Source of the DNA: Gemmatimonadota bacterium
Lineage (GTDB): Bacteria > Gemmatimonadota > Gemmatimonadetes > Longimicrobiales > Gaopeijiaceae
Direction: 5' to 3'
Assembly (NCBI GenBank): GCA_028874995.1
Contig: JAPPGM010000113.1
Coordinates: forward strand, 1-35,742
Length of the DNA stretch: 35,742 bases
Below are positions 1-8,672 of this stretch, in pieces. Position numbers and translations under genes: made by a program. The notes under the pieces are model-generated. The model saw nothing but the letters and a program-made list of their open reading frames with translations, was not told the DNA's origin and did not search any database. Within the stretch, counting starts at the first letter, position 1; every line of letters starts with the position of its first letter.

Positions 1-2
1 AT

Positions 3-326
3 CAGTACGCAGAACTGTTCAACGAAGGCCGCAACGTGGTGCTCATGGCGATCTCGAACGACTCGCCCGAAGAGGGCGCCTCATGGCTGAAGGACGAGGA
101 CTTCCCCTACCTGTTCGGTTCGGACCCCGGCGGCGGCGCCTTCGCGGCCTTCGGCGGATCGCTCAGGGACAACGGCATGGTGGGCAGCCGGGCCGTGATC
201 GTGATAGGGCCCGATGGCCGCGTGGCCAAGGTGATCCCGCAGTTCCGGCAGACGGATCCGACCGCCTACGACGAGTTGGCCGCCGTGATCGACGAGGTGA
301 CGCCGGAGCCGGACGAGGGGTCCTGA
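3..326 (+). CDS. Redoxin (AhpC/TSA-like) protein, 5' truncated
   Basis: The reading frame is open from the window edge (codons from base 3: Q-Y-A-E-L-F-N) to a TGA at 324-326, so this is the C-terminal part of a longer protein. The residues NVVLMAISNDS, then a short helix, then SRAVIVIGPDGRVAKVIPQF match the later strands of the thioredoxin-like fold of peroxiredoxin/redoxin proteins ('V-x-V-I-G-P-D-G-x-V'). The catalytic Cys region would lie left of the window and cannot be checked. Its last 61 bases overlap the 3' end of the opposite-strand thioredoxin gene, so the two are convergent. Family assignment is moderate; a TlpA/bacterioferritin-comigratory-type protein is the alternative. Confidence 0.6.
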   Translation, partial: QYAELFNEGRNVVLMAISNDSPEEGASWLKDEDFPYLFGSDPGGGAFAAFGGSLRDNGMVGSRAVIVIGPDGRVAKVIPQFRQTDPTAYDELAAVIDEVTPEPDEGS

Positions 327-892
327 AGGAGCGTCTCCACCGCCTTCACCAATTCCTGCTTCGGCCCCACGCCGGTCGACACCACCCGCCCCTCCCCATC
401 CACCAGCACCACGATCGAGGTCGTGAGGGCCTTGTACGCTCTCACGGCCTCGCCGCTTGCATCATAGACGTAGTCGTACCCCGGCGCGTGCCGCTCCACA
501 TGACGGCGCACCCTGCGGCGTGACTGGGAGACCGCCACGGCCACCGCCACCACCGCCACCTCTTCCCCGAACCGCTCCTGCACACGGTCGATCTCCGGCT
601 GGAGCGCCTCGCACTGCTCGCACCACGACGCCCAGAACTCGATCAGCGCGGGACGCCCGCCGATGACCTCGAGCAGGGAGACCTGGTTGCCCTCCATGTC
701 CTCCACCTGGGCGTCGGGCGCCGGCGTGCCGGCGGGGAGGCCCAATCCGTCTTCCGGCTCCTGGGCGGTGATGGTGGCAGGGGCGGCGAGGGCCAGAGCG
801 AGTGCGAAACACGCTGCGGTGGGCGCGAGGGCCACGACGACGGCGAGCCGCGCGGCGGTGGACGTGCCGGCCAGAGGTCGCTTGGTGTTCAC
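266..892 (-). CDS. Secreted TlpA-like thioredoxin
   Basis: Predicted periplasmic thiol-disulfide oxidoreductase of about 208 residues. I chose the GTG at 892 because GGGAGGA lies eight bases upstream; a GTG at 946 would add 18 residues without a good ribosome site. A long hydrophobic signal segment (residues about 15-42) ends at A-x-A-Q. The thioredoxin domain follows, with the active-site motif W-C-E-Q-C (Cys91, Cys94) and the later strand 'SIVVLVDGEGRVVSTGVG'. The usual cis-Pro before the later strand is replaced by 'TTSIVV', which is odd for the family. It is the last gene of module A; TlpA-type proteins usually receive electrons from a DsbD/CcdA-type membrane protein, and one is encoded in the neighbouring module. 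The 3' end overlaps the convergent redoxin gene. Confidence 0.85.
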   Translation of the reverse strand: MNTKRPLAGTSTAARLAVVVALAPTAACFALALALAAPATITAQEPEDGLGLPAGTPAPDAQVEDMEGNQVSLLEVIGGRPALIEFWASWCEQCEALQPEIDRVQERFGEEVAVVAVAVAVSQSRRRVRRHVERHAPGYDYVYDASGEAVRAYKALTTSIVVLVDGEGRVVSTGVGPKQELVKAVETLLQDPSSGSGVTSSITAANSS

Positions 893-946
893 GGCTGAAG
901 TCCTCCCGACAGGTGCGTCGTGTCGACCGGATGGTCGGACGATCAC

Positions 947-967
947 CTACATGTTATACCCCGCGTG
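947..967 (-). pseudogene. Remnant of a dsbD-like 3' end (deletion scar)
   Basis: Directly after the stop of the module-A Cys-rich protein, the minus strand reads His-Ala-Gly-Tyr-Asn-Met-stop. The intact DsbD-like gene of module B ends Gln-Ala-Gly-Tyr-Asn-Leu-stop (3083-3103). The two 21-base stretches match at 19 positions. Since the gene order in module B is OMP, Cys-rich protein, DsbD-like, this is best read as what is left after nearly the whole dsbD copy was deleted from module A. Confidence 0.7.
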
Positions 968-2059
968 CTACTTGCCGCCACGCCGCACGGCCTTGCGGCC
1001 GGTGCTGCCCTTGCAGGAGGAGGATTTGCCCCCGCTGCTGCAGCCGGAGGAAGTGGTGGTGGACTCGGGCTTGCGGTAACCCTTGCCCGCGATGACCTGA
1101 CCGGGCCTGCCGCCGCTCCTGGCGGGCGGATTGGGGTCGCCGGTGACCACGCGGGTGCTACCGGTCGGACGGACAGGACGATGCTCCTCAATGACGACTA
1201 CGGTGGTACCCGGGTGCCCAAGGCCGTGGTGATGCCAATCTATCCGCCCGTACCTGCGGTACCCGTCGGCGTCATCCGTTTCCTCCTTCAAGGCGAAGTG
1301 CTCCGCGAACGAGAGCTCGACCACCATGTCGATCACGGCCGTCGCCACACCGGCGTCGTCCAGCCGGATCAGATCCTCCACGGTCAGACCCTCGAACCGG
1401 GGCGCGACCTCGGCGAGCCATCCCGTCACCGCGTCGACATCGACGTTGCGCGAGGCGTCGATCACGTCGCCGATGGTGATGGCGGATGTCGGGGACGTGA
1501 TGCCACCCTGCACCGCGAAGGGGCTGGGGCGGGCGACCGGGATGTCCAGCTCCAGCCCGCTCAGCAGGCTTTGGCTCGTGCGCCGGTATCGCTTCGACCA
1601 TGCGGTGGTCGCGCCGTTCGCCTCGATGGCCCGGACGTCGATCCATTCGTCCGGAGTGGGCATGGAGATGATTCCGGTGCTCCGCCGGGGGGCTTCACCC
1701 TCGCAGGTCGCCAGGGACGCGGTGTATAGACGGCGCCGGTCCTCTGAGAAACGGGCGGACTCGGTGCCCCAACATCCATCCCGCTCGAATTCGTGTGTGC
1801 CGCCGTCCGCCACCAGCGGCTCGCTGAACTCAATCTCGCCATCGATGATGGTCAGCATTTCCACATCCTGCCCCTCGGCAATCAGGCACAGCACACCCTG
1901 GCCCTCCTCCTCGGCGGCCATCGACAGCCAGCACCCGAGAAAGGGCTGCCAGCCGGCGCGCAGTCCCTGCTCCTGCGCCTGTGCCGGGCTGTGGAGGGCG
2001 ATGGTGGCCACTGCAGCCAGGCCGATGAGCAAGCCGATTGCTGCTCTCTTCGTATTCAT
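968..2059 (-). CDS. Secreted Cys-rich protein A, module A (unknown function)
   Basis: About 363 residues with a Sec signal peptide ending A-Q-A-Q near residue 29. The start is the ATG at 2059, with GGAG five bases upstream; it is the exact counterpart of the paralogue's start. The N-terminal domain (residues about 36-190) has four cysteines (43, 58, 96, 119) at positions matching the paralogue at 3864-4967, starting with a 'W-Q-P-F-L-G-C-W' motif. A helical segment (about 210-275) contains 'ITIGDVIDASRNVD' and 'AGVATAVIDMVVELSF'. The C-terminal tail is His/Pro, then Gly/Ser/Lys-rich with two extra cysteines, ending R-R-G-G-K. No enzymatic motif is recognised. It follows OMP-A, so a cell-envelope role is likely. 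Confidence 0.8.
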   Translation of the reverse strand: MNTKRAAIGLLIGLAAVATIALHSPAQAQEQGLRAGWQPFLGCWLSMAAEEEGQGVLCLIAEGQDVEMLTIIDGEIEFSEPLVADGGTHEFERDGCWGTESARFSEDRRRLYTASLATCEGEAPRRSTGIISMPTPDEWIDVRAIEANGATTAWSKRYRRTSQSLLSGLELDIPVARPSPFAVQGGITSPTSAITIGDVIDASRNVDVDAVTGWLAEVAPRFEGLTVEDLIRLDDAGVATAVIDMVVELSFAEHFALKEETDDADGYRRYGRIDWHHHGLGHPGTTVVVIEEHRPVRPTGSTRVVTGDPNPPARSGGRPGQVIAGKGYRKPESTTTSSGCSSGGKSSSCKGSTGRKAVRRGGK

Positions 2060-2079
2060 GATCGCTCCGTCCATTCTTG

Positions 2080-2886
2080 TCATCGCCAAATCCTCAAGCC
2101 GACCCCGAGGCTCACGTTCAAGCCCGAGAGGTCGAGCTTGGGGAAACCGATGAAGTCGGAGTATCCGCTATCCCTTACCTCGAAGGGGCCTTTCGCGAAG
2201 CCATAGCGTGCTTCCCCGGTCAGCATCAGGCGCCCGCTGATATTGATGTCCATTCCGGTGAACAGGTGCACGGTCGGTGCCCTCTCCTCCGACCAGAAAT
2301 CCTCGTAGAAGATTTCTAACGACTCGTAATCGACGAACTCGCCATACTGGTCGAAACTGTACCAGACCATCCCACCGGCGATTCCCACAAACGGATTGAA
2401 GGTGCGGGGCACCCAGACGTGACTGCCGATCGTCCGGCCCCTGGGCTTCAGGTAGGCCTTGATGCCGGCGGTGAGCGGCGTGGTGGTGAAATTGGTGGTC
2501 TGGGTGATGGGCAGGCCGTCGTCGCCCTCCCAACCGCGGAACTCGGACAGAACTGAAGTGGGACTGTGCCCGAGCGCTACGACCAGGTCGATACGCTCCG
2601 ATCCCCGGATTCCCAGTTCGGCCATGATGTGGGAGCCCGCGAAATCGCGGTTCCCCACCGTCAAGTGCTGTTTGGTGAAGTCCCACAGGCTTTGAGTGTC
2701 GCCGCCTCCTCCAAGCCGTGGCACGCTGTATCCCCCCCTGACCACGACGGTGAACTGCGGCGTGCCGAGAAGAAACTCGCGCGCCTGGCCGTTGAGTTCC
2801 GCAGCGCCTACCGGTGCCAGCACGGCGAGGACGGGGATGATCCGGAGGGCCCGCATCGTCTTGAACTTACTGATTTGGCTGAACAT
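2080..2886 (-). CDS. Outer-membrane beta-barrel-like protein OMP-A
   Basis: About 268 residues. The start at 2886 has GGAGG seven bases upstream; an open frame continues further upstream but runs through the promoter region. A signal peptide (residues about 10-33) is followed by alternating hydrophobic/polar strands typical of small outer-membrane barrels ('FTVVVRGGYSVPR', 'GIKAYLKPRGR', 'FVGIAGGMVWYSF', 'LMLTGEARYGFAKGPF', 'LNVSLGVGLRIWR'). Much of the length matches OMP-B (5034-5834). It ends in W-R rather than the aromatic C-terminal residue usual for BAM substrates, unlike OMP-B, which ends in Phe. It is the first gene behind a sigma-54-type promoter. Specific function unknown. Confidence 0.82.
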   Translation of the reverse strand: MFSQISKFKTMRALRIIPVLAVLAPVGAAELNGQAREFLLGTPQFTVVVRGGYSVPRLGGGGDTQSLWDFTKQHLTVGNRDFAGSHIMAELGIRGSERIDLVVALGHSPTSVLSEFRGWEGDDGLPITQTTNFTTTPLTAGIKAYLKPRGRTIGSHVWVPRTFNPFVGIAGGMVWYSFDQYGEFVDYESLEIFYEDFWSEERAPTVHLFTGMDINISGRLMLTGEARYGFAKGPFEVRDSGYSDFIGFPKLDLSGLNVSLGVGLRIWR

Positions 2887-2923
2887 GTTCGGCCTCCTTC
2901 CTGCGGTTTGAAGAACATGATCA

Positions 2924-2937
2924 GCAAGACCCGTGCC
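2924..2937 (-). promoter_or_regulatory. Sigma-54 (RpoN) promoter of module A
   Basis: On the minus strand the site reads GGCACGGGTCTTGC, fitting the -24/-12 consensus TGGCACG-N4-TTGC with exactly ten bases between the GG and GC dinucleotides. Transcription would start near 2912, about 26 bases before the OMP-A start codon. The same 14 bases occur at the same distance upstream of OMP-B. Confidence 0.75.
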
Positions 2938-3024
2938 GCATTGGATTTCGGTGCGGAAGTGGAGGATTGGTAAGCACTTCCCGGGCTCGGGGGCCCGGCA
3001 AAGGTGCACATCGGGGGAGGCGGA

Positions 3025-3052
3025 GTCACCGAAGGGTGACAGGCGCGTCACC
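3025..3052. promoter_or_regulatory. Putative enhancer site of module A
   Basis: GTCACC-N4-GGTGAC (3025-3040), a perfect six-base inverted repeat, is followed after six bases by a third GTCACC (3047-3052). The same three half-sites with identical spacing lie upstream of OMP-B. The site is 87 bases upstream of the sigma-54 element, the usual distance for a bacterial enhancer-binding protein. Confidence 0.65.
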
Positions 3053-3082
3053 TCTCAGGGGCAAGCACCGGGTGCGTGGGAC

Positions 3083-3877
3083 CTACAGGTTATACCCCGC
3101 CTGAACGAAATAATACTGCGCGACCCCCAGCATGATCACCGCGGCCACGCGCTTGACCGCCACCATCCACTTCCCCGACTTCGGCAGCCGCGAAATCGTC
3201 CCCGAGAAGAGCCCGACCGCCACCAGCAGCGCGGTCATCCCGATGGAGAAGACGAAGAGGTAGACGAATCCCATGAAGCCCGCCCGCGTGGCGGCCACCC
3301 ACGCCAGCACGGCCGCGAAGGCGGGCGCCCCGCACGGCGCGGCCACCACCCCCGACGTGGCCCCCAGAACGAAGACGGCCCCGTACGAACCTCCCTCGCG
3401 ACCGCCCGCCCACGCCATGAGACGCTGCGGCACCCGCACCGGGATCACGTCGAACATGGCCAGCGCGAAGACCAGCAGCAGGTTGCCGATCGCCAGCAGC
3501 GCCCACGGGCTCGCGCTCACCGTGCCGAAGAGCGTGCCCGTGAGACCCGCCACCAGCCCGAGCACGGCGTAGAGCAGCGCCATGCCCGTGACGTAGGTCA
3601 TGGTGAGTCCGAGCGTGCGGGTCCACGGCTGCCTGTCACGCGCCGTCCCCGAGATCACCGAGGCGGTGATGGGGATCATGGGGTAGACGCAGGGAGTCAG
3701 GCTGGTCGCGACGCCGGCTCCGAAGAGGACGGCCAGCGCCAGCAACGGACTGGAGGCAAGTGTCTCGGAGAGCCCGCCGGCCGTTTCCTGTACGAACGAA
3801 AGCATGGCCGGGGCGGGCGGGAGGTCGCCGGCCCCGGCCATGAGTGTTGAGAACGTGGAGGTGCTACTTGCCGCCAC
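3083..3877 (-). CDS. DsbD/CcdA-like transmembrane thiol reductase
   Basis: About 264 residues, nearly all hydrophobic, matching the transmembrane domain of DsbD/CcdA, which carries electrons from cytoplasmic thioredoxin across the inner membrane to periplasmic thiol proteins. The two catalytic cysteines sit in the expected Pro-flanked motifs: 'L-T-P-C-V-Y-P-M' (Cys63) and 'A-A-P-C-G-A-P' (Cys182). About six to eight helices are visible. The periplasmic alpha and gamma domains of full DsbD are absent. The start is uncertain: the GTG at 3877 overlaps the upstream gene by 14 bases (translational coupling), while the ATG at 3841 is the alternative; neither has a clear ribosome site. Third gene of module B and the likely partner of the TlpA-like protein. 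Confidence 0.88.
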   Translation of the reverse strand: MAASSTSTFSTLMAGAGDLPPAPAMLSFVQETAGGLSETLASSPLLALAVLFGAGVATSLTPCVYPMIPITASVISGTARDRQPWTRTLGLTMTYVTGMALLYAVLGLVAGLTGTLFGTVSASPWALLAIGNLLLVFALAMFDVIPVRVPQRLMAWAGGREGGSYGAVFVLGATSGVVAAPCGAPAFAAVLAWVAATRAGFMGFVYLFVFSIGMTALLVAVGLFSGTISRLPKSGKWMVAVKRVAAVIMLGVAQYYFVQAGYNL

Positions 3878-4967
3878 GCCGGACGGCCGTGCGGCCGGTG
3901 CTGGTCCTGCCGGACGCCTTCCCGGTGCTGCTGCCCGACGAAGAGCCGGAATAGCCCGAGCCCGAGGATGCGGAGCCTCCGGGACGCCGGTAGCCCCTGC
4001 CCGCGACGGCCTGACCGCCGCCGCCCCCCGGAATACGGTTCACGGAGACCACGACGGGCGTGTAGTAGCCCGGATACCACCTGCGATAGCCCAAACCCCA
4101 GCCGTAGCGACCGTAACCGTAGCCGTAGCCGTAGTAGGAGCCGTAGTAGTACGGATCCGCCCACGGGTACAGGTAACCGCTGCGGGTGTTCGATTCCTCA
4201 TTGAGGGCGAAGTGCTCGGGGAACGAGACCGCGACCACCACGTCGATCACGGCAGTGGCCACGCCAGCCTCCTCCATCCGGAGCAGGTCCTCGGCGCGCA
4301 GGCCCTCGAACTGCTGCTCGACCACGGCAAGCCATCCCTTGACCGCGTCCGTATCCACGTTTCGCGAGGCGTCGATCACGTCGTCGATGGTGATTGCAGA
4401 CGTTGCGTAGCTGATGCCGCCACGCAGAGCGAAGGGGTTGGGACGGGCGACCGGATCAGCCAGCCCCAACTGGGTCAGCACACTGTGGCTCGTGCGCTGG
4501 TACCGCTGCGACCAGACGGCGGTCGCGCCGTTCGTCTCGATAGCCCGGACATCCACCCATTCGTCCAGCGTGGGCATGGAGATGATGCCGGTGCTGCGCC
4601 GGGAGGCTTCGCCGTCGCAGGTGACCAGGGACGCGGTATAGAGCCGCCGCCGGTCCTCGGAGAAGCGGGCGGATTCCGTACCCTGGCAGTTGTCCCGTTG
4701 GAATTCGTGCGTGCCCCCGTCCGCCACGAGGGGCTCATTGAATGCCACCTCGCCGTCGACGATGGTCAGCATCTCCACGTCCCGGCCGTCAGCGACGAGG
4801 CACAGGATCCCCTGGTCCTCTTCGGTTTCCATGGCCTGCCAGCACCCCAGATAGGGCTGCCAACCGGCTCGGAGGTCACCCTCCTGCGCCCCTACCGGAC
4901 TGTGCATCGAGATGGCGGCCACAGCCAGGCCGGCGAGCAAAGCGGTTCCCGTTCTCTTCGTACTCAT
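3864..4967 (-). CDS. Secreted Cys-rich protein B, module B (unknown function)
   Basis: About 367 residues, paralogous to the protein at 968-2059. The start at 4967 has GGAGGGAG just upstream. A signal peptide ends near residue 28 (V-G-A-Q). The N-terminal domain has four cysteines (42, 56, 94, 117) matching the paralogue, with 'W-Q-P-Y-L-G-C-W', then a helical part with 'ITIDDVIDASRNVD'. The tail differs sharply: a Tyr/Gly-rich run at about residues 268-300, then Gly/Ser-rich sequence ending R-R-G-G-K. Low-complexity Tyr/Gly tails occur in adhesive or surface-layer proteins, but that role is a guess here. It lies 66 bases after OMP-B and overlaps the DsbD-like gene. Confidence 0.8.
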   Translation of the reverse strand: MSTKRTGTALLAGLAVAAISMHSPVGAQEGDLRAGWQPYLGCWQAMETEEDQGILCLVADGRDVEMLTIVDGEVAFNEPLVADGGTHEFQRDNCQGTESARFSEDRRRLYTASLVTCDGEASRRSTGIISMPTLDEWVDVRAIETNGATAVWSQRYQRTSHSVLTQLGLADPVARPNPFALRGGISYATSAITIDDVIDASRNVDTDAVKGWLAVVEQQFEGLRAEDLLRMEEAGVATAVIDVVVAVSFPEHFALNEESNTRSGYLYPWADPYYYGSYYGYGYGYGRYGWGLGYRRWYPGYYTPVVVSVNRIPGGGGGQAVAGRGYRRPGGSASSGSGYSGSSSGSSTGKASGRTSTGRTAVRRGGK

Positions 4968-5033
4968 GATCGCTCCCTCCGCGTTGAGCATCTTTCTGTT
5001 GCGTCGATCCTTGTTCGTCATCGTCTGTTTGCC

Positions 5034-5834
5034 CTAGAACCTGAAGCTGACCCCGGCGCTGACGTTCAGCCCCGCCAGGTCCAGGTCGGGGAATCCCGCG
5101 AAATCGGTATAGCCGAGATAGTCCTGCTGGATGGGACCCTTGGCGAATCCGTACCGTGCTTCTCCGGTGAGCATCATCCGTCGGCTGATGCCCACATCCA
5201 CTCCGGTGAAGAACTGCACGATCGGCCCCCGCTCGACCGTTCGGAGATTCGTGATGAAGATGTCGAGCGTCTCGTAGTCCACGAATTCGCCGTATTGCTC
5301 GAAGCGGTACCAGACCATCCCGCCCGCGATCCCGGCAAAGGCATTGAAGTTGCGGGGCACCCAGGCGAAACTGCCGATCGACCGCCCCCGCGGCATCAGG
5401 TAGGCCTTGACCCCGAGCGTGAGCGGCGTCGTGGTGAATTCGGTGGTCTGTACGATGGGCAGGCCGTCGTCTCCGATGTATTCGCGGAACTCGGACTGCG
5501 TGGACGAGGCGCTGTACCCCATACCGAGGACGAGGTCGAGGCGCTCCGTCGCCCGCACGCCGACATCGGCCGCGAGGTAGGGTCCGGCGAAATCGGCGGT
5601 CTCCACCGTCAAGTGCTTGCGCGTGAAGTCCCAGATACTCTCCGTGACATCGCCACTCCCCGCCCGCGGCATGCTGTATCCCCCTCTGAGCGAAACGGAC
5701 ACCTGCGGCGTCCGGAGGAGGAAGTCGCGCTCCTGGGCGTCGAGTTCCGGGGCACTCACCGGCGCCAGCAACGCAAGGCCGGGAATGATCCGGAAAGCTC
5801 GCTTCATCTTGCGTCTCCCGATGTGACTGGACAT
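5034..5834 (-). CDS. Outer-membrane beta-barrel-like protein OMP-B
   Basis: 266 residues. The ATG at 5834 has AGGAG eight bases upstream. A basic N-terminus and hydrophobic segment (residues about 9-33) are followed by amphipathic strands and a typical barrel-closing end, 'NVSAGVSFRF', with terminal Phe. Long stretches match OMP-A (2080-2886), for example 'FAGIAGGMVWYRFEQYGEFVDYE' against its counterpart. It heads module B and is preceded by its own sigma-54 element and enhancer-like site. Ligand or function not recognised. Confidence 0.83.
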   Translation of the reverse strand: MSSHIGRRKMKRAFRIIPGLALLAPVSAPELDAQERDFLLRTPQVSVSLRGGYSMPRAGSGDVTESIWDFTRKHLTVETADFAGPYLAADVGVRATERLDLVLGMGYSASSTQSEFREYIGDDGLPIVQTTEFTTTPLTLGVKAYLMPRGRSIGSFAWVPRNFNAFAGIAGGMVWYRFEQYGEFVDYETLDIFITNLRTVERGPIVQFFTGVDVGISRRMMLTGEARYGFAKGPIQQDYLGYTDFAGFPDLDLAGLNVSAGVSFRF

Positions 5835-5871
5835 TTCGGTCTCCTAAGCTGGGGTTTGCCGAACATGTTTA

Positions 5872-5885
5872 GCAAGACCCGTGCC
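5872..5885 (-). promoter_or_regulatory. Sigma-54 (RpoN) promoter of module B
   Basis: Minus-strand GGCACGGGTCTTGC, identical to the module A element, with GG-N10-GC spacing. The predicted start near 5860 leaves a leader of about 26 bases before OMP-B, the same as in module A. Confidence 0.75.
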
Positions 5886-5970
5886 GCGTCTGGAAAGGCG
5901 CGCGGACCAGGCGGAATCAGGGGTTTGGGAGGATCGGGAGCCGGAAGCGGCGGCGCCCCGCGGAATCGAA

Positions 5971-5998
5971 GTCACCTCAGGGTGACAGTCGCGTCACC
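5971..5998. promoter_or_regulatory. Putative enhancer site of module B
   Basis: GTCACC-TCAG-GGTGAC (5971-5986) plus a third GTCACC at 5993-5998. Arrangement and spacing are identical to 3025-3052, while the bases between half-sites differ, which suggests selection on the half-sites. It lies 85 bases upstream of the sigma-54 element. Confidence 0.65.
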
Positions 5999-6102
5999 CC
6001 TTTGGGACAGGCGTCGGGCAGGACCGCGGGACGTTCCGGCCGGGCACCCGGGAGGGAGCGGAAGGACAGCGGATGGACCCGCGGGGTGTCGGCCGTCCGC
6101 GC

Positions 6103-6516
6103 CTACGGTTCCGGCAGCACCTCCGCGCCGGTAAGCCCCAACCTACGGTCCGTGGACCAGACCGTGTTGATGTCGTGTTCGCCGATCAGGACCAGGGTGG
6201 ACGCGTCCACGTAGGTCAGCTTCTCATGGCGCAGCCGGTCCGACATGCGACAGACACGGGCGTGGTGGTCCTCGTCGGCGGTGAACATGACCAACCCTTC
6301 GAGGCTCGCGACCATCGAGCCGAACGAACGCGCCGCCTCGTCCCCGTGCTGGTCCAGGAACCAGTTGTACGCCTCCGACCAGACCAGCACCGAGGTGTGC
6401 CACCGGGGATTTGGAGTGGCCGCGAACAGGGCGCGGGCCTGCTCGTGATATCGGTCGCGCCTGCTCATGGCGGCGATGAAGATGCCGGTGTCGAGGAATA
6501 CCCTGGGACCCTTCAT
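6103..6516 (-). CDS. vapC: PIN-domain toxin (VapC-like)
   Basis: 137 residues, the usual VapC size. PIN-domain RNases cleave RNA using acidic residues that bind magnesium or manganese; the expected set is visible as Asp9 ('V-F-L-D-T'), Glu48 ('W-S-E-A'), Asp104 ('Y-V-D-A-S') and Asp123 ('S-T-D-R-R'). Its start codon overlaps the stop of the upstream ribbon-helix-helix gene by four bases, the typical antitoxin-first, coupled arrangement. The target RNA cannot be told from sequence. Confidence 0.9.
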   Translation of the reverse strand: MKGPRVFLDTGIFIAAMSRRDRYHEQARALFAATPNPRWHTSVLVWSEAYNWFLDQHGDEAARSFGSMVASLEGLVMFTADEDHHARVCRMSDRLRHEKLTYVDASTLVLIGEHDINTVWSTDRRLGLTGAEVLPEP

Positions 6517-6740
6517 CGCGTGTCGCGTCCGTAAACGACGTGGTCGACGGTGCTGCTGTCGCGCGGGCGTCCTTCCAGGCTGCCCACATAGGCCATCCAG
6601 GGCTTGTCCTCGGGATACCGTGCCAGCGCCTCGCGCAGCGTGCGACGACAGAAGTCGGTCAGCGACACGCCCTGGCGGCGTGAAACCCTGTCGGCGTGCT
6701 CATACAGGTCGCGGTCCAGCGAGATCCGGATCGGGATCAT
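6513..6740 (-). CDS. Ribbon-helix-helix antitoxin of the PIN toxin
   Basis: 75 residues from the ATG at 6740, which has AAGGAG six bases upstream; a longer open frame (to 6791) lacks this site. The N-terminus 'IPIRISLDRDLYEHADRVS' followed by 'GVSLTDFCRRTLREAL' fits a CopG/MetJ-type ribbon-helix-helix DNA-binding fold: a beta strand, then two helices. The Pro/Trp-containing C-terminal half would wrap the toxin. It overlaps the toxin gene by four bases. Confidence 0.8.
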   Translation of the reverse strand: MIPIRISLDRDLYEHADRVSRRQGVSLTDFCRRTLREALARYPEDKPWMAYVGSLEGRPRDSSTVDHVVYGRDTR

Positions 6741-6769
6741 GTTATCTCCTTGTCCGGGGGTAACATAAC
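6741..6769. promoter_or_regulatory. Possible autoregulatory operator of the PIN toxin pair
   Basis: GTTAT at 6741-6745 and ATAAC at 6765-6769 form a short inverted repeat covering the ribosome site and a TATGTT-like -10 on the minus strand, where an antitoxin operator is expected. The arms are only five bases, so support is weak. Confidence 0.3.
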
Positions 6770-6803
6770 TCCGTGCGGCGACCTTTCCCAAACCGCCCGC
6801 GCG

Positions 6804-7652
6804 TCAGCGGAGCGTGCGGTCCAGATACGCCTTCAGACGCTGCCACGCGTCGGCGGCAGGCGCGGTCCGGACCTCGGGGTCGGCGTCCACGCGAAGCCAG
6901 AAGCCGTGGTTCACGTCGTCGTAGATGTGCAGGTCGTGCTCGATGCCCGCGGACCGGAGCGCGGCCTCGAAGGCCGCCACCGACTCGGGCGATGGTCCGT
7001 TGTCGAGGGCGGCGAAGGTGCCGTAGACCTCGTGGTCCATGGTGGCGAGCACCTCGGGATCGTCCACCAGGCGTCCGTAGAAGATTGCGGTGGCCTCGTG
7101 GTTGACGCCGTCGAGGCCGAAGGACAGCGCGACGCCGCCACCGAAACACCATCCCATCGCCCCCACCCGTCCGGTCACGTCCGGGCGCGCCTTCAGATGG
7201 GCCACCGCCGCGTCGAGGTTGGCGATCATCGCCTGCGGGTTCGCGCGCGCTTCGCGCACCAGGGCCATGTTCTCCTGCGGGTTGGAGCCGGTGCGTCCCT
7301 GGAAGAGATCGGCCGCGAGTGTGACGTACCCCTCGGCGGCGAAGTCGTCGGCGAGCTGGCGGACACGGTTCTGGAGGCCGTTCCATTCGTGGATGATGAC
7401 CAGGGCGGGGAAGGGGCCGTCGCCGGCCGGGACGGCGAGGTAGCCGGTGGTGAGGGTGTCGCCGCCGACGTAGTGAACGTCGGTGCCTTCGAGCGCGCCG
7501 CCCTGGCCGATGATGGCGGGGGGGAGGTCCTGGGGGGTGGTTGCGTTGGCTCGGGCGCCGGGGTTCTGCGCGGCGGCGTCGCGTGGTGGGGCGTCGGTGC
7601 ATGCGGGCACCAGGAGGGGTGCGAGGAGTGCGGTGGCAAGGAGGCGTCTCAT
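6804..7652 (-). CDS. Dienelactone hydrolase-like lipoprotein
   Basis: 282 residues from the ATG at 7652 (GGAGA eight bases upstream); ATG 7667 is an alternative. The signal peptide ends in the lipobox L-V-P-A-C (Cys18). The rest is an alpha/beta hydrolase of the dienelactone hydrolase family: Glu89 in 'H-E-W', nucleophile Cys169 in 'G-W-C-F-G-G-G', Asp217 in 'A-L-D-N', His249 in 'V-N-H-G-F'. The family hydrolyses lactones and esters with a Cys-His-Asp triad. Lipid-anchored, exported versions are less common than the cytoplasmic ClcD type, so the natural substrate is open. Divergent from the metallo-hydrolase gene, 96 bases away. Confidence 0.9.
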   Translation of the reverse strand: MRRLLATALLAPLLVPACTDAPPRDAAAQNPGARANATTPQDLPPAIIGQGGALEGTDVHYVGGDTLTTGYLAVPAGDGPFPALVIIHEWNGLQNRVRQLADDFAAEGYVTLAADLFQGRTGSNPQENMALVREARANPQAMIANLDAAVAHLKARPDVTGRVGAMGWCFGGGVALSFGLDGVNHEATAIFYGRLVDDPEVLATMDHEVYGTFAALDNGPSPESVAAFEAALRSAGIEHDLHIYDDVNHGFWLRVDADPEVRTAPAADAWQRLKAYLDRTLR

Positions 7653-7748
7653 GTCGGTATTCTCCATGGGGGTGACGGTGGCCTTATTGATATGGATGGG
7701 GCGCGCCGTTCGCCACAATCCCACCAGCGAAAGGAGAGGAGTCGAAGG

Positions 7749-8672
7749 ATGAGGACTTCGTACCGGAGCGGGTTCGTCCGCTTTGCCGGGCTGGCCGTTC
7801 CTGGATTGCTGGGCGCGGGCGCTGCCCCGGGTCCGGTCAACGGCCAGCAGGATATGTCGAATGTGGAGATCACGACCATCGAATTGGAGAGCGATCTCTT
7901 CATGCTGGTGGGCCGCGGCGGCAACATCGGCCTGTCGGTGGGGGACGACGGTGCCTTCCTGATCGACGACCAGTTCGCACCGCTGACGGAGAAGATCCTG
8001 GCGGCGGTCGCGGCCGTCACCGACCAGCCCGTTCGCTGGGTGCTCAACACCCACTGGCACGGAGACCACACCGGGGGCAACGAGAACCTCGGCGAGGCCG
8101 GCGCAATGATCGTGGCCCACGAGAACGTGTACCGCCGCATGAACCCGGCCGAGTTCGCGGACCTGGTCGGGCGTTCGGGCCAGGCGCCGCGCGCCGCCCT
8201 TCCGGTCGTCACCTTCGACCAGGGCGTGCGCTTCCACTGGAACGGGCGCCACATCCGGGTCACCCACATCGGGAAGGCCCACACCGACGGCGACGCGATC
8301 GTGCACTTCCCGCGGGCCAACGTCTTCCACATGGGCGACACCTTCTTCCGGAGCCGCTACCCGTTCATCGACGTGGACAGCGGGGGCGGGGTGGACGGGG
8401 TGATCGCGGCGGCCAACTTCGTGCTGGAGCGGTCGAGCGAGGGGACGCGGATCATCCCCGGGCACGGGGAGCTGGCGTCGCCGGAGCACCTGCGCGAATA
8501 CCGGGACATGCTGGAGACCGTGCGGCTGCGGGTTGCCGGACTGGTGGCCAACGGGCGGACGGAGGACCAGGTTGTAGCCGCGGCGCCGACTGCGGATCTG
8601 GATGCGGTTTGGGGGGAGAATCCGGAGAGGTTCGTGCGGGCGGTGTACCGGAGTCTGGCGGGGTCGAATTAG
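7749..8672 (+). CDS. Secreted metallo-beta-lactamase-fold hydrolase
   Basis: 307 residues. The ATG at 7749 follows a purine-rich site (AAAGGAGAGGAG). A signal peptide spans about residues 10-33. The zinc-binding signature is T-H-W-H-G-D-H (His102, His104, Asp106, His107), with later ligands in 'G-K-A-H-T-D-G-D', 'H-M-G-D-T' and 'P-G-H-G-E'. This fits the class B-like/SoxH branch rather than a proven antibiotic resistance enzyme; the conserved 'AHTDGD' and 'GHGELAS' motifs are typical of general MBL-fold hydrolases. Transcribed away from the dienelactone hydrolase gene and followed 112 bases later by the M20 gene. Confidence 0.9.
   Translation: MRTSYRSGFVRFAGLAVPGLLGAGAAPGPVNGQQDMSNVEITTIELESDLFMLVGRGGNIGLSVGDDGAFLIDDQFAPLTEKILAAVAAVTDQPVRWVLNTHWHGDHTGGNENLGEAGAMIVAHENVYRRMNPAEFADLVGRSGQAPRAALPVVTFDQGVRFHWNGRHIRVTHIGKAHTDGDAIVHFPRANVFHMGDTFFRSRYPFIDVDSGGGVDGVIAAANFVLERSSEGTRIIPGHGELASPEHLREYRDMLETVRLRVAGLVANGRTEDQVVAAAPTADLDAVWGENPERFVRAVYRSLAGSN

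Follow-up and report, generated by a model that had tools for sequence, protein, structure and literature searches.

The window analysed here is a 35.7-kb stretch (35,742 nt) of contig JAPPGM010000113.1, from the genome of an uncultured Gemmatimonadota bacterium (GCA_028874995.1, below G000; 4.5 Mb in 191 contigs). It carries two gene modules on the minus strand, each headed by a gene for a predicted outer-membrane protein (OMP), and a first-pass annotation of the sequence had proposed that twin sigma-54 promoters with matched enhancer sites drive them. Module 2 begins with OMP2 (5034-5834; 266 aa), predicted from a structure model and Foldseek to be an eight-stranded outer-membrane barrel. 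It continues with SEC2 (3864-5021), which by model and alignment is a predicted exported protein with a calycin-like barrel, helices, a Ser/Gly-rich tail and four conserved cysteines. The module closes with a gene for a CcdA/DsbD-type membrane protein (3083-3877; Pfam DsbD_TM, 1.1e-47), which lies 3' of OMP-SEC in the genus. Module 1 consists of OMP1 (2080-2886; 268 aa) and SEC1 (968-2089), recognized by sequence comparison as paralogs of OMP2 (63% amino-acid identity) and SEC2 (64%), followed by a gene for a TlpA/ResA-like thioredoxin-fold protein (266-946; Pfam Redoxin, 7.5e-16) that is found 3' of ccdA in relatives.

An identical element of the form GG-N10-GC, CGGCACGGGTCTTGCT, lies upstream of both OMP genes on the minus strand, at 2923-2938 for OMP1 and 5871-5886 for OMP2, as had been described, and is conserved upstream of homologs. 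When the window was searched with TGGCACG-N4-TTGCW, holding GG and GC invariant and allowing up to two mismatches, these two sites were the sole matches, each with one mismatch to the consensus. With the C of the GC set at -12, transcription is predicted to start at 2912 (OMP1) and 5860 (OMP2). This leaves leaders of 26 nt to the ATG codons at 2886 and 5834, the length that the first-pass annotation had given. No sigma-70-like promoter was found in window positions 1-7000, and no RNA family in positions 1-8000.

Further upstream, the array GTCACC-N3-GGGTGAC-N3-CGCGTCACC is present at 3025-3052 (OMP1) and 5971-5998 (OMP2). These are its only two places in the 4.5-Mb genome with up to three mismatches allowed, so that the genome-wide search suggested earlier led to no further site. 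On the coding strand, the OMP2 array reads TGTCCCAAAGGGGTGAC-GCGAC-TGTCACCCTGAGGTGAC and the OMP1 array reads TGCCCCTGAGAGGTGAC-GCGCC-TGTCACCCTTCGGTGAC. Comparison with homologs revealed the underlying unit as four half-sites in two TGTC-N10-GAC palindromes, 22 bp apart. The three GTCACC/GGTGAC half-sites initially reported do exist, but a weaker fourth had been missed and the real unit is the pair of palindromes. Both palindromes are perfect in the OMP2 enhancer (5971-6009, minus strand), while the distal one of the OMP1 enhancer (3025-3063, minus strand) starts with TGCC; the enhancers are conserved in homologs. The base following the strict TGTC-N10-GAC is G, A or T, which may be compared with the TGTCN10GACA consensus for GlrR/QseF (PMC8745638). 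Identical spacing, as claimed, holds inside the array but not between array and promoter element, where the gap is 86 bp for OMP1 and 84 bp for OMP2. The spacer between enhancer and promoter has diverged between the two copies, while the elements themselves stayed near-identical.

The layout was compared across 91 homologous OMP loci from 148 related genomes, the closest named relatives being Gemmatimonadota metagenome-assembled genomes (MAGs), several labelled Longimicrobiales. A strong sigma-54 site was present within 300 bp upstream in 67 of the 91 loci, compared with 4 on the antisense strand and a mean of 2.3 (maximum 7) in dinucleotide shuffles. In 50 loci, a TGTC-N10-GAC palindrome was located at -140 to -45 of the sigma-54 site; limiting the search to 300 bp of upstream sequence left 47, against none in antisense and a shuffle mean of 0.01. 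The palindrome starts cluster near -79, -90, -101 and -123 to -126, about one helical turn apart. Activator-binding sites are expected about 80-150 bp upstream of the start, and the paired palindromes conform to this. A combined pattern, TGTC-N10-GAC followed after 60-90 bases by GGCAY-N5-TTGC, gave 73 matches in the 148 genomes versus 7 for the same pattern read backwards, and by our count 44 of the 73 were OMP loci. In the window genome, it matched exactly twice, at the OMP1 and OMP2 promoters. The arrangement expected for RpoN and an enhancer-binding protein is conserved among these genes at a level that antisense, shuffled and reversed-pattern controls come nowhere near. The spacer has diverged, and the two elements are found again in distant homologs, so the elements are constrained and not just inherited. 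Among ten Acidobacteriota-labelled homologs checked, one (L322) has both elements and another (L315) the sigma-54 site alone; with one locus in ten carrying both, the switch belongs mainly to the Gemmatimonadota.

Further targets were looked for in this genome. The sigma-54 core alone is uninformative, since at one mismatch it gave 101 matches versus 188 for the reversed control. Seven more exact GGCACG-N4-TTGCW sites occur here, all within long open frames and none with a strict palindrome upstream. A paired-site candidate at C19:45832 was set aside, with no sigma-54 element seen by eye in the adjoining stretch.

The genome contains one rpoN gene (G000:C132; 43.5 bits, open frame of 539 aa), whose absence had been named as a refutation, and the enhancer-binding proteins that were to be looked for are there as well: five full Sigma54_activat proteins (OG4-OG8, from loci L004-L008), four of which are response regulators. 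OG4 (G000:C180) has no recognisable receiver domain. The presence of rpoN could not serve as a discriminator, as it was found in 138 of 148 relatives and separates nothing. We compared activators fetched from G000 and 34 relatives, for some genomes a subset of those present, and searched for the DNA-binding domain of OG6 (from G000:C178) in all 148 genomes. OG6 is present in most genomes and is absent or weakly matched in several lineages, including g62, g15, G014 and G074. Where OG6 is present, 50 of 77 OMP loci have the enhancer; where it is lacking, 0 of 14 do (Fisher p = 3e-6, with relatives treated as independent). Within the family, the same test gave 49/65 versus 0/6 (p = 5e-4). In genus g62, the sigma-54 core, the enhancer and OG6 are all missing, and the OMP gene remains. 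In G049, the OG6 slot beside the aminotransferase gene holds a 46-residue remnant of the OG6 DNA-binding domain, and the OMP gene has no enhancer. An activator gene lost from its syntenic position thus goes together with a missing enhancer at a promoter elsewhere in the genome, a further comparative example of how sigma-54 may govern the cell exterior. OG5, OG7 and OG8 were rejected as the activator, since among the activators fetched they are missing from several enhancer-bearing genomes. By its phylogenetic co-occurrence with the enhancer, OG6, an unlinked NtrX-like regulator, fits best of the five and is the likely switch.

Another activator, most plausibly OG4, might instead bind the enhancers of sigma-54-dependent promoters. 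OG4 occurs in nearly all enhancer-bearing genomes examined, even where the activators number only three. However, the activators retrieved for G012, whose enhancer is perfect, did not include OG4, and it is retained in g62, g15 and G049, all of which lack the enhancer. Absence of the enhancer follows that of OG6 and not that of OG4, and we regard OG4 as an unlikely candidate. Paired palindromes are not a mark of sigma-54 activators alone; an ordinary repressor or a sigma-70 activator could also bind them, the -24/-12 match being fortuitous. This is harder to reconcile with a palindrome held at fixed, helix-phased distances from a sigma-54 core in about 50 loci, with the lack of a sigma-70-like promoter noted above, and with g62, where both elements went missing along with OG6 while the OMP gene was kept; we consider it quite improbable. 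The paralogy of the modules (63-64% protein identity) would fit matching upstream regions that are a functionless relic of a recent tandem duplication. Yet the spacer has diverged between copies whose elements are nearly identical. Throughout the family, homologs present in single copy carry the two elements as well, and this conservation outside the duplication already contradicts a relic, to which we give hardly any credence.

Several observations do weigh against assigning the promoters to OG6. The strict enhancer is missing at 27 of 77 OMP loci in OG6-bearing genomes, and a genus-level table, in which a palindrome at any position within 450 bp was accepted, gave 22/40 versus 0/5 (p = 0.049). 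The genomes are MAGs, and absences may be assembly gaps. No gene for a kinase (NtrY) was found among the neighbours of OG6; likewise, no sigma-54 site or palindrome was present within 1.2 kb upstream of it, leaving autoregulation unsupported. Finally, genus g15 (G036, G068, G084) and G014 have a strong sigma-54 core without the TGTC-N10-GAC enhancer and without OG6. Their OMP promoter may have passed under the control of a different activator, and a core that persists without enhancer or OG6 indicates that another activator can serve it.

Weighing these points, we think it probable that two sigma-54 promoters with paired-palindrome enhancers drive OMP2-SEC2-ccdA and OMP1-SEC1-tlpA, with OG6 as the most likely activator. 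The central sigma-54/enhancer reading of the first-pass annotation is right, and its support goes beyond what the window alone shows. The OMP-SEC unit and its control region were duplicated in tandem within an ancestral OMP-SEC-ccdA-tlpA operon. In the mechanism that we propose, a kinase would phosphorylate OG6, dimers of which would bind the two TGTC-N10-GAC palindromes; DNA looping would bring them to the RpoN-polymerase about 100 bp away, and the GSFTGA loop of OG6 would open the closed complex. The products are predicted to be an eight-stranded outer-membrane barrel and an exported calycin-like protein that contains cysteines, made together with thiol-handling partners.

In relatives, the combined pattern also precedes genes for TonB-plug, OmpA-family glycine-zipper, L,D-transpeptidase and mechanosensitive-channel proteins, and for several small proteins whose N-termini look lipoprotein- or export-like by eye; one target is a cytoplasmic STAS-domain protein, and about 7 chance matches are expected among the hits. 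A dedicated regulator had been predicted for the two OMP genes. In this genome the strict pattern does mark these two promoters only, but in relatives it stands before further envelope genes as well, and the strongest candidate, OG6, is a widespread regulator unlinked to the modules. Judging from these targets, it is probably an envelope regulator with lineage-specific targets rather than a dedicated one. A broader proposal is that the orphan, NtrX-like, ribosomal-protein-adjacent OG6 regulates the outer membrane with sigma-54 throughout the Gemmatimonadota. Through paired TGTC-N10-GAC sites it would control the OMP-SEC operon and, depending on the lineage, lipoproteins, an OmpA-family protein, an L,D-transpeptidase and a TonB-plug protein. 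We regard this proposal as evenly balanced.

OG6 is a protein of 452 aa with receiver, AAA+ and HTH_8 domains (Pfam PF00158, PF02954). The loop at the GAFTGA position reads GSFTGA in 20 of 21 orthologs, and the LDVK receiver motif is conserved. Its best NCBIfam model is NtrX (NF051870), at 410.7 bits with the cut-off of 600 not reached; the GlrR model gave 336.8 bits, also below its cut-off of 763. By these profile scores OG6 is NtrX-like, and we do not file it as NtrX. It aligns over its full length with the solved NtrC-family regulator 4l4u and also with 5m7n, which we take to be Brucella NtrX. Its neighbours, partly conserved in relatives, are genes for a 289-aa uncharacterised protein, a class-V aminotransferase, a sigma-70-type factor and ribosomal proteins L13/S2. 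The 289-aa protein (L187:8932-9801, minus strand, in G000:C178) has no Pfam match, lies 31 bp 5' of OG6 and keeps this place in a number of relatives, and it may contribute to the signal input of OG6.

The gene order bears on the origin of the two modules. The usual order in the genus is OMP-SEC-ccdA-tlpA, and in the window the OMP-SEC pair is duplicated between ccdA and tlpA, with ccdA closing module 2 and tlpA module 1. The two modules are one operon, divided by a tandem duplication in which the control region was copied too. The same duplication is seen in L252 and, in damaged form, in L249. In the latter (G021), the second OMP copy, about 3 kb 3' of the first, matches over 198 residues only and no second SEC was seen at that copy, while promoter and enhancer are still there, as in a decaying duplicate. 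A SEC homolog directly follows the OMP gene in 79 of 79 named loci (shown as two segments in L312); the MAGs concerned bear the labels Gemmatimonadota, Acidobacteriota and, in a few cases, others. This defines a conserved two-gene outer-membrane unit that has no Pfam or NCBIfam family. Upstream of OMP2, a gene for a PIN-domain (VapC-like) protein at 6103-6516 (minus strand) is kept 5' of OMP in the closest relatives (L249-L252), and a small open reading frame at about 6514-6740 (minus strand), just 5' of it, resembles a ribbon-helix-helix antitoxin.

The OMP model has eight strands at a predicted local distance difference test score (pLDDT) of 82, and its best Foldseek matches are OmpA, OmpW and OmpX; no Pfam or NCBIfam family matched the sequence. 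The SEC model (mean pLDDT 70) consists of a calycin-like barrel, then helices and a disordered Ser/Gly-rich tail. Its barrel part is similar to the folds of fatty-acid-binding proteins and lipocalins (Z about 9), in a comparison that covered little of the C-terminal half of SEC. As this fold is a common arrangement, we claim no function from the likeness. No solved relatives of SEC were found by sequence. Cys60, Cys74, Cys112 and Cys135 of SEC are conserved at no less than 90%, and we infer a connection with the neighbouring CcdA and TlpA. In place of the Tyr/Gly-rich segment of SEC2 (residues ~285-320), SEC1 carries a His/Gly stretch; the functions of the two proteins may have diverged after duplication.

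This type of system is well known, and several of its parts have counterparts elsewhere. The predicted eight-stranded barrel recalls OmpA, OmpW and OmpX, from which OMP differs in having no sequence family match and in its constant partner SEC. GlrR/QseF is a sigma-54 activator of glmY and rpoE in Enterobacteriaceae (PMC8745638, PMC6075780) and acts at envelope-related promoters (PMC6075780). It shares with the OG6 candidate a TGTC-N10-GAC palindrome, sigma-54 promoters and envelope-related targets. In contrast, OG6 falls below the GlrR cut-off, has no linked kinase or glmY, and belongs to a different phylum; the likeness in sites may be convergent. NtrYX governs envelope genes in Rhodobacter sphaeroides, with GCA-N9-TGC as the proposed site (PMC7240162). 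NtrX, the best family model of OG6, likewise has envelope genes as direct targets, but OG6 is below the equivalog cut-off and has no adjacent NtrY, and the proteobacterial site GCA-N9-TGC differs from the TGTC-N10-GAC seen here. Nothing specific on sigma-54 or enhancer-binding proteins in Gemmatimonadota was found in the open-licence literature, and linking this site and operon with a probable activator appears to be new for the phylum. A probable regulator, its site and an operon are concretely assigned to one another where the literature searched yielded no description of a sigma-54 activator or regulon. Sigma-54 has been broadly tied to the bacterial exterior as a general proposal (Francke 2011, PMC3162934). 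Both that proposal and our findings place sigma-54 promoters before envelope genes, and what is added here is a specific enhancer, an operon and a probable activator, in Gemmatimonadota.

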